34,837 nucleotides of DNA from a virus. This document shows positions 14,750 to 30,479 of the stretch, piece by piece. Position numbers and translations under genes: made by a program. Location: the IMG/VR virus record IMGVR_UViG_3300042294_002629, positions 1-34,837 of that record. The stretch is one strand, 5' to 3'. Position 1 is the stretch's first letter. The number at the start of each line of letters is the position of its first letter. Under the pieces are notes generated by a model that searched no databases, was not told the origin of the DNA, and saw nothing but the letters and a program-made list of their open reading frames with translations.

Positions 14750-15069
14750 TAGGCTTCTGGTTCAGCTGCCTTCCTCGTTACAGGCTGTGGCATGATGACT
14801 GTATTGAATGAGCCTTCCAGCTCAATGTCTAGCTTGGCCTTGCCATAGGCTCTGTCCAGGAGCAGCTCGGCAGCCCTGACATCGCCCTTGGTTGCCTTAG
14901 CTCTCAGAGCCATAAGAATAGCCTCAGCAGCTGTTTTGCCATCCTTCTCATCACCAAGTACATTGGCAAGCAATTCCCTTAACTCAGGTAGCTTTTTAGG
15001 CCTGCCAGCAGGATTACCAGATTGGCCTTTTTTCCATTTTCCTTTTTCAAGATTCTCCGGGTTTGGCAT
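14749..15069 (-). CDS. terS: Terminase small subunit candidate (DUF5681-like)
   Basis: A 106-residue basic protein with the motif KWKKGQSGNPAGRPKKLPEL (about 11-30), characteristic of DUF5681 proteins often found directly before terL. A helical part (residues about 32-75, including AEAILMALRAKATKGDVRAAELLLDRAYGK) could make the oligomerisation or DNA-recognition domain. Small size is normal for terS. It overlaps the methyltransferase gene upstream by 23 bases and terL downstream by one. The role in recognising the packaging site is known for the family by position rather than seen here. Confidence 0.7.
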   Translation of the reverse strand: MPNPENLEKGKWKKGQSGNPAGRPKKLPELRELLANVLGDEKDGKTAAEAILMALRAKATKGDVRAAELLLDRAYGKAKLDIELEGSFNTVIMPQPVTRKAAEPEA

Positions 15070-16264
15070 CCTTGTTTTGTCCTTGTAAAGTACCTTCAGT
15101 CAGATAAGGCTGACCGTTCCTTTTTATTTGCAATGTAGGGTCTAATTTAAGCATCCTGTCAACTATGACCTGGCAGTATTTTGGGTCAAGTTCCATGCCG
15201 TAACATTTGCGCTTTAATTGATGAGCTGCGACCATTGTTGAACCACTGCCCAAGTATAAATCAACAATAAAACTATTTATATTTGAACTTATCTTCAATT
15301 CATTTAATATTATTTCTAATGGCTTTATTGTTGGGTGGTCATCACTTTTTTCATTATCCAGAATAAAATATTTGCCATAATTAACATTGGGAAGACTGCA
15401 ATTAAATATTGCATTTTTTGAAATATAAATAAGATATTCAGTATCTGCTAAATGATGATTTGAAGCAAAAGGTAGAATTTGTTTTTTATGCCATGTCAAT
15501 ATATTAAAATTATATCCATTGTCTTTTGCCCAATTACAATAGTCAGGAACTAAATCAGTATTACAGAAAATATAGGCATTTATTTGTTTATTAAATAATA
15601 TCGGTATTATGTTTAGGAAATTTGTAGGGTTAAAATCAATAATATCTTTTATTCTTTCTTTAAATCTTTCTGCATTTTTAAAATCTCCTGTTGATTTTCC
15701 CATCTTTTTATACCTATATGGAGGATCGGTAAAAAGCATATCAGCCTTTTGCCCATTCATAAGCTTTGCCAACGCATCACTATCTGTTGAATCTCCACAA
15801 AGCAATCGATGCTCACCTATCTCAAATAGGTCACCAAGCACAATGTCTGTCTGAATTTCATCAGGCATAACATAATCATCCTCTTCTGCTTCAGGCTCTT
15901 CAGTAAATCCAACAGGCACATCTAAGCCCCAGGCATCAAGTTCTTCAGCATCCCAGTTATTGGCAAGGTCATCCCAATCCCACTCACCGAAGCCTACATT
16001 GTCCTTGATTATAAACTCTCTCTGCTTAGCCTCATCCCAATCAACTACTTGCACAGGCACTTGCTTCCACTTGGCTTCTTTCATTGCCTTAAAGCGCATG
16101 TTGCCACCAAGGATAACCATATCCTGGTTCACGACTATTGGCCTAACACTAGCCATCTCAGGGAAGTCCTTTAGGCTTTGAACGAGCTTATGAAACTTAT
16201 CATCCTTGATAAGTCTAGGATTGCTCGGATTTGGTTTGATAGAGCTTATTGCAACTATTTGCAT
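15047..16264 (-). CDS. ParB-like domain fused to DNA methyltransferase
   Basis: A 405-residue fusion. Residues 1 to about 90 are a ParB/Srx-like domain (NPSNPR, VVNQDMVILGGNMRFKAM). Residues about 140-370 are an adenine-N6/cytosine-N4 methyltransferase of the beta order: LFTDPPYRYK (catalytic DPPY 180-183), HPTIKP (310-315), then the SAM-binding VDLYLGSGST (334-343) and YGMELDPKYC. Such fusions are frequent in phages and protect phage DNA from restriction. The centre between DPPY and the SAM motif (about 15260-15715) is strikingly AT-rich: 13 G/C in 15541-15600 against 29 in 16021-16080. That is where target recognition lies, so a specificity swap is likely. Confidence 0.85.
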   Translation of the reverse strand: MQIVAISSIKPNPSNPRLIKDDKFHKLVQSLKDFPEMASVRPIVVNQDMVILGGNMRFKAMKEAKWKQVPVQVVDWDEAKQREFIIKDNVGFGEWDWDDLANNWDAEELDAWGLDVPVGFTEEPEAEEDDYVMPDEIQTDIVLGDLFEIGEHRLLCGDSTDSDALAKLMNGQKADMLFTDPPYRYKKMGKSTGDFKNAERFKERIKDIIDFNPTNFLNIIPILFNKQINAYIFCNTDLVPDYCNWAKDNGYNFNILTWHKKQILPFASNHHLADTEYLIYISKNAIFNCSLPNVNYGKYFILDNEKSDDHPTIKPLEIILNELKISSNINSFIVDLYLGSGSTMVAAHQLKRKCYGMELDPKYCQVIVDRMLKLDPTLQIKRNGQPYLTEGTLQGQNKDAKPGES

Positions 16265-29481: not shown

Positions 29482-29528
29482 AAAACCCCTCCGGGTGCGC
29501 ATTGTGAAGAGGCGTGAGGGGTCTTATT
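29482..29528 (+). terminator. Terminator-like hairpin at the end of the accessory operon
   Basis: AAAACCCCTC pairs over 6 bp (CCCCTC / GAGGGG, 29486-29491 with 29516-29521), with a long 24-base loop that can fold further (GCGC/GCG). It is followed by TCTTATTGT. Weak T-run, so termination is probable but not certain. It lies just before the cassette-like region. Confidence 0.5.
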
Positions 29529-29559
29529 GTCGCAAATGTACAATGAATATAGTAATTGC

Positions 29560-29692
29560 TGATAACGTTTTGCGGCTTTGTGCAGGTGGGGATTTAGTAG
29601 TACAAATGCTGAATTTAGTACCAAAGCCGATTAGAATTACTGCTGTTGATGTTAGCACATCAGCCCCACTTGCACAAAACCGATGTTATGCG
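29560..29692 (+). repeat. attC-like site A
   Basis: 133 bases. R''-like TGATAAC (29560-29566), then arm CGGCTTTGTGCAGGTGGGG (29573-29591), a 72-base loop, the inverse arm CCCCACTTGCACAAAACCG (29664-29682, 17 of 19 positions complementary), and R'-like GTTATGCG (29685-29692). Length is within the range of attC. It shares ATAACGTTTTGCG at its left end and ACAAATGCTGAA in its loop with site B. Its R'' has no matching GTTATCA upstream, so the unit that should precede it is missing or truncated. Confidence 0.5.
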
Positions 29693-29811
29693 TATGTGTG
29701 GCGGTTATTTTAGTAGAAATAAAATATTGGAAGGCTGTAAAATCAGGTCGCATTATGCAGACGTTCAGAGCTAAATACTCAATGAACCCTTCCTTTTTAA
29801 AAATAAAAAAT

Positions 29812-30057
29812 ATGAGCAGCATTAGAAATTATAAAGAAAAAACAAGTAGAAGAAAAAGAGAATGTTACCAATGTGGGCATACTATTTTAGAAAATACTAA
29901 ATATAGAAATATCGAAGTGAGGTACGATAAAACCATAATTACTTTGTCTAAATGTATGAACTGTACAGACTTCGATATTTTTGAACTTCCAGATACATTT
30001 ATGAAACAGATTAATAAATTTGTCAGCCTAAACACTCGAAATGAAAACGGGAGGTAG
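29812..30057 (+). CDS. Cassette gene 1: small zinc-ribbon-like protein
   Basis: An 81-residue basic protein beginning MSSIRNYKEKTSRRKRECYQ. Two CxxC pairs (C18/C21 and C48/C51) could bind one zinc ion. The rest is Ile/Lys/Thr-rich with a beta-prone middle. The ATG at 29812 follows an A-rich leader; an in-frame ATG at 29755 (100 residues) is the alternative. DNA is much more AT-rich than the phage genes. It ends 8 bases before attC-like site B. Not recognised; typical of cassette-borne small proteins of unknown role, possibly toxin/antitoxin or anti-phage. Confidence 0.5.
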   Translation: MSSIRNYKEKTSRRKRECYQCGHTILENTKYRNIEVRYDKTIITLSKCMNCTDFDIFELPDTFMKQINKFVSLNTRNENGR

Positions 30058-30065
30058 CCACATTA

Positions 30066-30161
30066 CGCATAACGTTTTGCGTATATGTGCAGTACGCAGA
30101 AACGAAAGTTTAAATTAACAACAAATGCTGAAAGCGTATTGCACATATACGCTGTTAGGCG
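30066..30161 (+). repeat. attC-like site B
   Basis: 96 bases. R''-like CGCATAAC (30066-30073), arm GCGTATATGTGCAGTACGC (30079-30097), 36-base loop, arm GCGTATTGCACATATACGC (30134-30152, 18 of 19 complementary), R' GTTAGGCG (30154-30161), which fits the integron consensus GTTRRRY exactly. The R'' box is complementary to the R' of site A, not to its own R', as expected within an array. Confidence 0.6.
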
Positions 30162-30172
30162 AAGTTACTCTT

Positions 30173-30352
30173 ATGGATATTAAAGAATTGAAACCGCAAG
30201 AAATGCAAGAAATAATCGACTTCTACCACCACATAGAAGATTATGGACATATCTTTCATTTTGAACCTGAAAAATTAGATGAACCTTTCAAAAAGATTAT
30301 TGAAGGCATTTCGGAAATTAGAAAGATGATGGATGATAGTTACGGTATGTAA
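30173..30352 (+). CDS. Cassette gene 2: small acidic helical protein
   Basis: A 59-residue protein: MDIKELKPQEMQEIIDFYHH then helical IEDYGHIFHFEPEKLDEPFK and on. The ATG at 30173 is 11 bases after attC-like site B; the longer frame from 30125 would be translated through the hairpin arm and is rejected. The stop is 3 bases before the CGCCTAAC box. Promoterless, as cassette genes usually are. Not recognised. Confidence 0.5.
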   Translation: MDIKELKPQEMQEIIDFYHHIEDYGHIFHFEPEKLDEPFKKIIEGISEIRKMMDDSYGM

Positions 30353-30356
30353 TTTC

Positions 30357-30479
30357 GCCTAACTATCCCATTGCCGCAATATTGCGTGATATATTGTCAA
30401 GTTATGTCTTGACAAAATTTGACAAAAAGTAAAGTTATGACATTACATTTTTGTACGGCAATTGTCCGTACTTGCCGTA
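30357..30479. repeat. Right flank of the cassette cluster: R''-like box and palindromes
   Basis: Starts with GCCTAAC (30357-30363, perfect RYYYAAC). No full inverted-repeat arm pair with a GTTAGGC end follows; a short degenerate site ending GTTATGT at 30401 is conceivable. Two hairpins lie here: TTGTCAAG-TTATGT-CTTGACAA (30394-30415) and TACGGCAA/TTGCCGTA (30454-30479). Region is AT-rich and has no ORF. It also forms the 3' end of the minus-strand gene at 30490. Confidence 0.3.

Follow-up and report, generated by a model that had tools for sequence, protein, structure and literature searches.

A probable two-cassette array of a Bacteroidota integron-like recombination system in a phage without an integrase

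Two long hairpins, each followed by a small gene, lie among the genes of this phage, and they raise the question of whether they are integron cassettes and, if so, how they were placed there. The window (the whole 34.8-kb virus record that was analysed) encodes a terminase, a tape measure protein, a DnaB helicase and a Gp157-like protein. The preliminary description had seen no integrase, and we confirmed that the window has no tyrosine recombinase or integrase; none of 28 phage or array contigs has a tyrosine recombinase either. We conclude that an integrase-less and presumably virulent phage here carries, at a conserved attI-like dock, what is probably an array of two cassettes belonging to a Bacteroidota recombination system of integron-like type.

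The insert and its dock

The insert of two units spans 29566-30362, and each unit consists of a hairpin site followed by a body with one co-directional small ORF. Both hairpins and both units of the preliminary description are present. The two hairpins and the two bodies with self-complementary ends are an integrase-less cassette array, with the following features (window coordinates; a caret marks a junction).

29552-29565, plus strand: left half of the phage docking site (GTAATTGCTGATAA^C), joined straight to TATCCC.. in three related phages (L041, L055 and L110) and the first boundary of many other phage arrays
29559-29692, plus strand: recombination site A, a hairpin with R'' and R' boxes; 106.6 bits with covariance model R1, of whose training set it is a member; fold z -3.7
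29566-30072, plus strand: mobile unit 1, 507 bp, site A core and body 1; putative crossovers at TAA^C, boundaries from the empty-site comparison and unit polarity
29812-30057, plus strand: ORF 1 of the ORF list, 81 aa, a CxxC...CxxC protein with a weak match to PHROG 7314 (PHROGs)
30066-30162, plus strand: recombination site B; 89.1 bits with R1, also as a training-set member; 19-nt arms that are 95% complementary
30073-30362, plus strand: mobile unit 2, 290 bp, site B core and body 2; 30069-30363 is 100% identical in IMGVR_UViG_3300005525_000129, with unrelated flanks
30173-30352, plus strand: ORF 2, 59 aa, of a small protein family that is also an ordinary gene in other viral contigs
30363-30390, minus strand: right half of the docking site, attI-like, C^TATCCCATTGC with the palindrome CGCAATATTGCG; 28 distinct docks in related phages; layout as in host attI

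Arms of 19 bases had been attributed to both sites. This holds for site B, where the arms are separated by 36 nt, and not for site A, whose stem is shorter (12 and 6 bp with one mismatch) and encloses a long loop. Fold z-scores of the hairpins against shuffled sequence ranged from -3.2 to -4.7. A custom site finder matched A and B and nothing else in the 35 kb, with 0.1 match per strand in shuffles. No attC-type match was found at the locus in Rfam, no similar DNA among named phages and plasmids, and no relative of ORF 1 in IMG/VR outside the same phage; the named phage relatives of the window terminase are distant.

We compared about 80 related phage contigs. The empty site in these phages reads TTGCTGATAAC^TATCCYATTGCCGC..., and the three phages lacking the insert have ...ATTGCTG(A/C)TAACTAT(C/A)C(C/T)ATTGCCGCAATATTGCG..., which is the left flank of the window joined to its right flank. 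The right half of the dock recurs in the 28 distinct docks, at times elsewhere among the phage genes. Nineteen of the 28 hold a unit that begins with the complement of the dock-proximal end, the left half TTGCTGATAAC opens many of the filled docks, and the same dock carries other cassettes in related phages. The empty docks, and the recurrence of both halves in filled ones, thus indicate repeated insertion at a single kind of site borne by phages. In a close relative (L033), whose 373-aa neighbor protein is 100% identical to that of the window, the same dock has other units. In three further close relatives (L035, L037 and L038) the region corresponding to 29538-30450 is absent entirely, dock included, so the dock itself can be lost.

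IMGVR_UViG_3300005525_000129, which shares unit 2, is a phage too (its terminase is 64% identical to that of the window); there the unit is part of a longer array, and identity stops at the R'' boxes. Such sharing might mean that the cassettes are real but spread among phages mainly when similar sites recombine homologously in co-infected cells, no integrase taking part. The phages do lack an integrase, and short homologies could be supplied by conserved site ends such as TAACGTTTTGCG; part of the exchange between phages could be explained by phage recombination. However, the boundaries fall at the AA^C point within unrelated flanks, the dock accepts unrelated units, the site types share little sequence, and the empty docks are joined precisely. 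As the main route of movement, homologous recombination is therefore unlikely.

Just upstream of the dock (29485-29521, minus strand) lies an abiF RNA (RF03085, 45 bits), which was also found in 8 of 10 related phages tested; no Abi_2 gene was found in the window or in 11 other phage records. Regulation by the AbiF RNA has been described (PMC12373285), and the orphan RNA copy could be a decoy against AbiF-type abortive infection.

Unit ends, site structure and gene order

The claim that each unit ends in the complement of its own beginning was upheld: the ends of unit 2 match at 14 of 15 nt and those of unit 1 over 10 nt, and sets of 58 and 155 units behave alike. In the 58 units, gathered without selection for end complementarity, agreement over 8 variable positions is 6.1 for the two ends of one unit, 3.2 for swapped partners and 2.9 within the site. 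Among the 155, complementarity breaks off abruptly beyond 15 nt: it is at least 96% over positions 4-9 and about 75-84% over 12-15, and from position 16 onward it is 12-25%. Since the 97 chromosomal units in this set were preselected on positions 4-12, the independent part of the result is positions 13-15 together with the fall at 16. At position 11, 79% of units have a G.T wobble and 1% a match. The complementary ends bear out the earlier view of a cassette cluster in a phage without an integrase, as do the naturally empty site, the occurrence of one unit in a second phage, and arrays in some 20 related contigs.

R' of site B and R'' of the last box had been fitted to GTTRRRY/RYYYAAC. R' of site A is GTTATGC, which does not fit GTTRRRY, and the right end of the insert abuts phage docking sequence rather than being a truncated attC. 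Across the family, 15 of the 155 unit starts fit GTTRRRY, with GTTA or GTTG in 154.

Among 43 aligned sites, 15 of the 17 stem pairs show compensatory changes, and at one pair 40 of the 43 sites have G.T. A further 132 chromosomal sites, none of them in the training set, were aligned by fitting to the covariance model: 96.2% of cells are paired, against 34-47% in slid controls, and 16 of 17 pairs covary. The pair that is G.T in the first alignment is G.T again in 125 of 131, with no record of G-C. The outer stem is 15 bp. No base is consistently bulged (extrahelical), an unpaired column or extra base being present in some sites only.

Copies with a long, conserved loop are scattered as single sites in many genomes, which would suit a dispersed repeat or transposon-like (MITE) family lying beside unrelated loci and having no cassette function. 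However, the ends of each body match each other and not those of other bodies, and the arrays are unidirectional, bear ORFs and end at an integrase. The MITE reading is already contradicted by this unit-specific end complementarity and array topology, and we give it hardly any credence.

The order of site and gene in the mobile unit can be read from bodies shared between loci, against a background site identity with a median of 61% and a 95th percentile of 74%. Body and upstream site are both 100% identical between the window and L004, 98.5% and 95% between L043 and L127, and 92% and 95% between L132 and L137. With the downstream site as third figure, the identities are 99.6%, 95% and 66% for two bacterial genomes (L254 and L268), 68%, 84% and 62% for L256 and L280, 93%, 78% and 65% for L264 and L310, and 95%, 75% and 60% for L013 and L135. 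One pair is an exception, keeping neither site (58% and 57%; L266 and L317). The 59-aa protein of unit 2 was found once more at 90% identity (L214), again after a related site. Because shared bodies keep their upstream site, in phages and chromosomes alike, the mobile unit is a site plus the following ORF, the reverse of the classical integron cassette.

Chromosomal arrays, their recombinase and attI

Searched with the covariance model, 178 of 395 genomes sampled from the phylum that includes Dyadobacter genome G006 (Bacteroidota) contain the site family, with arrays of more than 30 kb, as do 29 of 125 from the Candidatus Cloacimonadota phylum; the E-values are rough, the genomes are a capped sample, and site numbers per genome are lower bounds. 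Arrays for which a recombinase was found end at a tyrosine recombinase on the opposite strand, with its 3' end facing the 3' end of the array. Sites are present at 34 of 40 loci centred on this recombinase, and 96 of the 98 sites share one topology, with the array 3' end toward the integrase. Across genomes, 97 of the 111 that bear the recombinase have sites (odds ratio 17, p ~2e-27). Of the 178 genomes with sites, 81 have no detected recombinase, which may reflect decay or incomplete assemblies.

These data bear on the most familiar explanation, that the locus is an ordinary CALIN whose classical attC cassettes are moved by a host IntI and carried by the phage. Integrase-less attC clusters have indeed been described in phages, and 5 of 6 tested sites recombine with IntI1 (PMC9892861). 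The complementary unit ends, and a crossover compatible with G^TT, agree with it as well. Against it stand the scarcity of GTTRRRY among the 155 unit starts and the position of the site 5' of the ORF. Moreover, none of 20 loci centred on true IntI has a family site at E < 1e-4, those examined have classical attC, and genomes with IntI are not enriched in the sites (odds ratio 0.55). Our scan of the Polaribacter phage described in PMC9892861 found no R1 site. We hold an ordinary CALIN to be quite improbable, and on the strength of the same IntI loci we rejected IntI as the enzyme serving the family sites.

IntI scores above cut-off in 105 of the 395 genomes, and the IntI loci examined (L193-L199 and L201) have an attI-like site 3' of intI, then classical attC. 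IS91-associated recombinases (L153 and L154), considered because a site lies near the first, were rejected since they have neither the array topology nor the N-terminal domain; their single measurable box spacing is also short.

The array-associated recombinase matches the IntI model TIGR02249 at 192-223 bits, under the cut-off of 265, and NF040815 at 201-247 bits, with 3 of 6 proteins under its 220-bit cut-off. The spacing from box I to box II (GLR-HxLRH) is 91-96 aa, versus 133 in 11 of 11 measurable IntI, and the 41-residue IntI insertion is absent. In a tree IntI forms a 100/100 clade with the recombinase outside; the recombinase rows are not one clade, branches are long and some placements are unsure. 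In the N-terminal region, one to three repeats match DUF5710/HARP weakly (E 1.6e-4 to 0.02), and a W...W.(I/L/V)P signature marks the repeats of five recombinases (L258, L261, L263, L264 and L145). The HARP domains of SMARCAL1 bind fork DNA, and this likeness makes branched-DNA binding by the repeats a lead.

At most recombinase loci examined, the last unit ends in TAAC or CAAC, T..T.TATA follows, and the recombinase stop codon lies about 100 bp further on. TAT occupies +6 to +8 in 15 of 15 attI-like sequences, and 9 of the 15 include a perfect hairpin that begins 7-13 nt past the junction, versus 1.9 in shuffles. The phage dock, TAAC^TATCC(Y)ATTG with its palindrome, has the same layout as host attI; the two are alike in layout and unlike in sequence.

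Since the phages lack an integrase, the simplest reading is a host enzyme acting in trans, with the cassettes as counter-restriction cargo. A host, probably of Bacteroidota, with a matching tyrosine recombinase (XerA/IntI-like core, no IntI insertion, extra N-terminal HARP/DUF5710-like repeats) would act on the phage. Circular or single-stranded units would be inserted at the phage dock, with the likely crossover at TAA^C (G^TT on the other strand), and inserted units would be open to excision or reshuffling. In the host array the same reaction would use attI, which lies about 100 bp from the stop codon of the integrase. For the phage, the gain would be swappable accessory genes, many of them anti-restriction.

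Relation to known systems and cassette cargo

The sites had been called attC-like and their units integron-style cassettes. The cassette logic stands, and the assignment to the classical IntI/attC system does not. Like classical integrons (IntI, attI and attC; class 1 and Vibrio chromosomal), the system has small ORF units with complementary ends, folded palindromic sites whose structure is conserved more than their sequence, unidirectional arrays, and a tyrosine recombinase beside an attI-like end. Unlike them, it has a different tyrosine recombinase with short box spacing, family sites absent from IntI loci, R boxes that are rarely GTTRRRY, a 15-bp outer stem, and an invariant G.T wobble, with an unpaired or extra base in part of the sites but no consistent extrahelical one. 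In classical integrons the ORF is followed by attC and ORFs point away from attI, whereas here the site precedes the ORF, so ORFs point toward attI. Because the IntI insertion, the GTTRRRY box and the ORF-then-site order were all looked for and not found, we do not file this system as a classical integron.

Integrase-less cassette arrays are already known from virulent phages, among them the Polaribacter (Bacteroidota) phage (Qi et al., 2023; PMC9892861), in which no site of the present family was found. Those arrays resemble the present one in having at least two att sites in an integrase-less phage, with methyltransferase cassettes too; they differ in being classical attC, several of them recombined by IntI1, and no recurrent docking site is described in the text consulted. 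The recombinase has the core-binding and catalytic domains of the integron-like subgroup of simple tyrosine recombinases (Smyshlyaev et al., 2021; PMC8138268) and of NCBIfam NF040815. It differs from these in its extra N-terminal HARP/DUF5710-like repeats and its dedicated cassette array, neither of which was found in the literature searched. Few complete integrons were found in Bacteroidetes by the authors of IntegronFinder 2.0 (PMC9024848). No description of a mirror-polarity system was found in the open-access journal papers searched, and this is apparently an undescribed, widespread integron-like gene-capture system of Bacteroidota.

We lean toward a broader proposal, that Bacteroidota and Cloacimonadota have a second integron system of mirror polarity, served by a separate integrase lineage that lacks the IntI insertion and has fork-binding-like N-terminal repeats, and that a phage clade evolved attI-like docks that use the host integrase in trans, swapping anti-restriction cassettes among phages and hosts. 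If so, there would be a second form of integron-like gene capture, without the IntI insertion that is regarded as essential for folded-site recombination, and because this form does without the insertion, that requirement would become directly testable. There would also be a large hidden cassette pool in Bacteroidota, where classical attC arrays are rarely detected, and phages with no integrase of their own would be maintaining a socket at which the host enzyme swaps their counter-defence genes.

We scanned 20 of the longer non-redundant phage cassette ORFs, and 9 are for DNA modification: six N6/N4 methylases, one C5 methylase, one MT-A70 and one Mom. When the cassettes of one phage (L004) were searched against the 395 genomes, the matches were essentially to sites only, and no searched phage cassette body was found.

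This richness in DNA methyltransferases, with the one Mom-like protein, concerns cassette bodies of L043, L078, L124, L127, L128, L132, L135, L137, L138 and L140. One cassette of the L004 / L213 array encodes a 299-aa PAPS-reductase-domain protein. Relatives of ORF 2 lie beside ordinary genes in viral contigs (L215-L221), mostly with no sites nearby, so this cassette gene also has a non-cassette life. In the window itself, a 405-aa gene (15047-16264, minus strand) fuses a ParB N-terminal domain to an N6/N4 DNA methylase domain.
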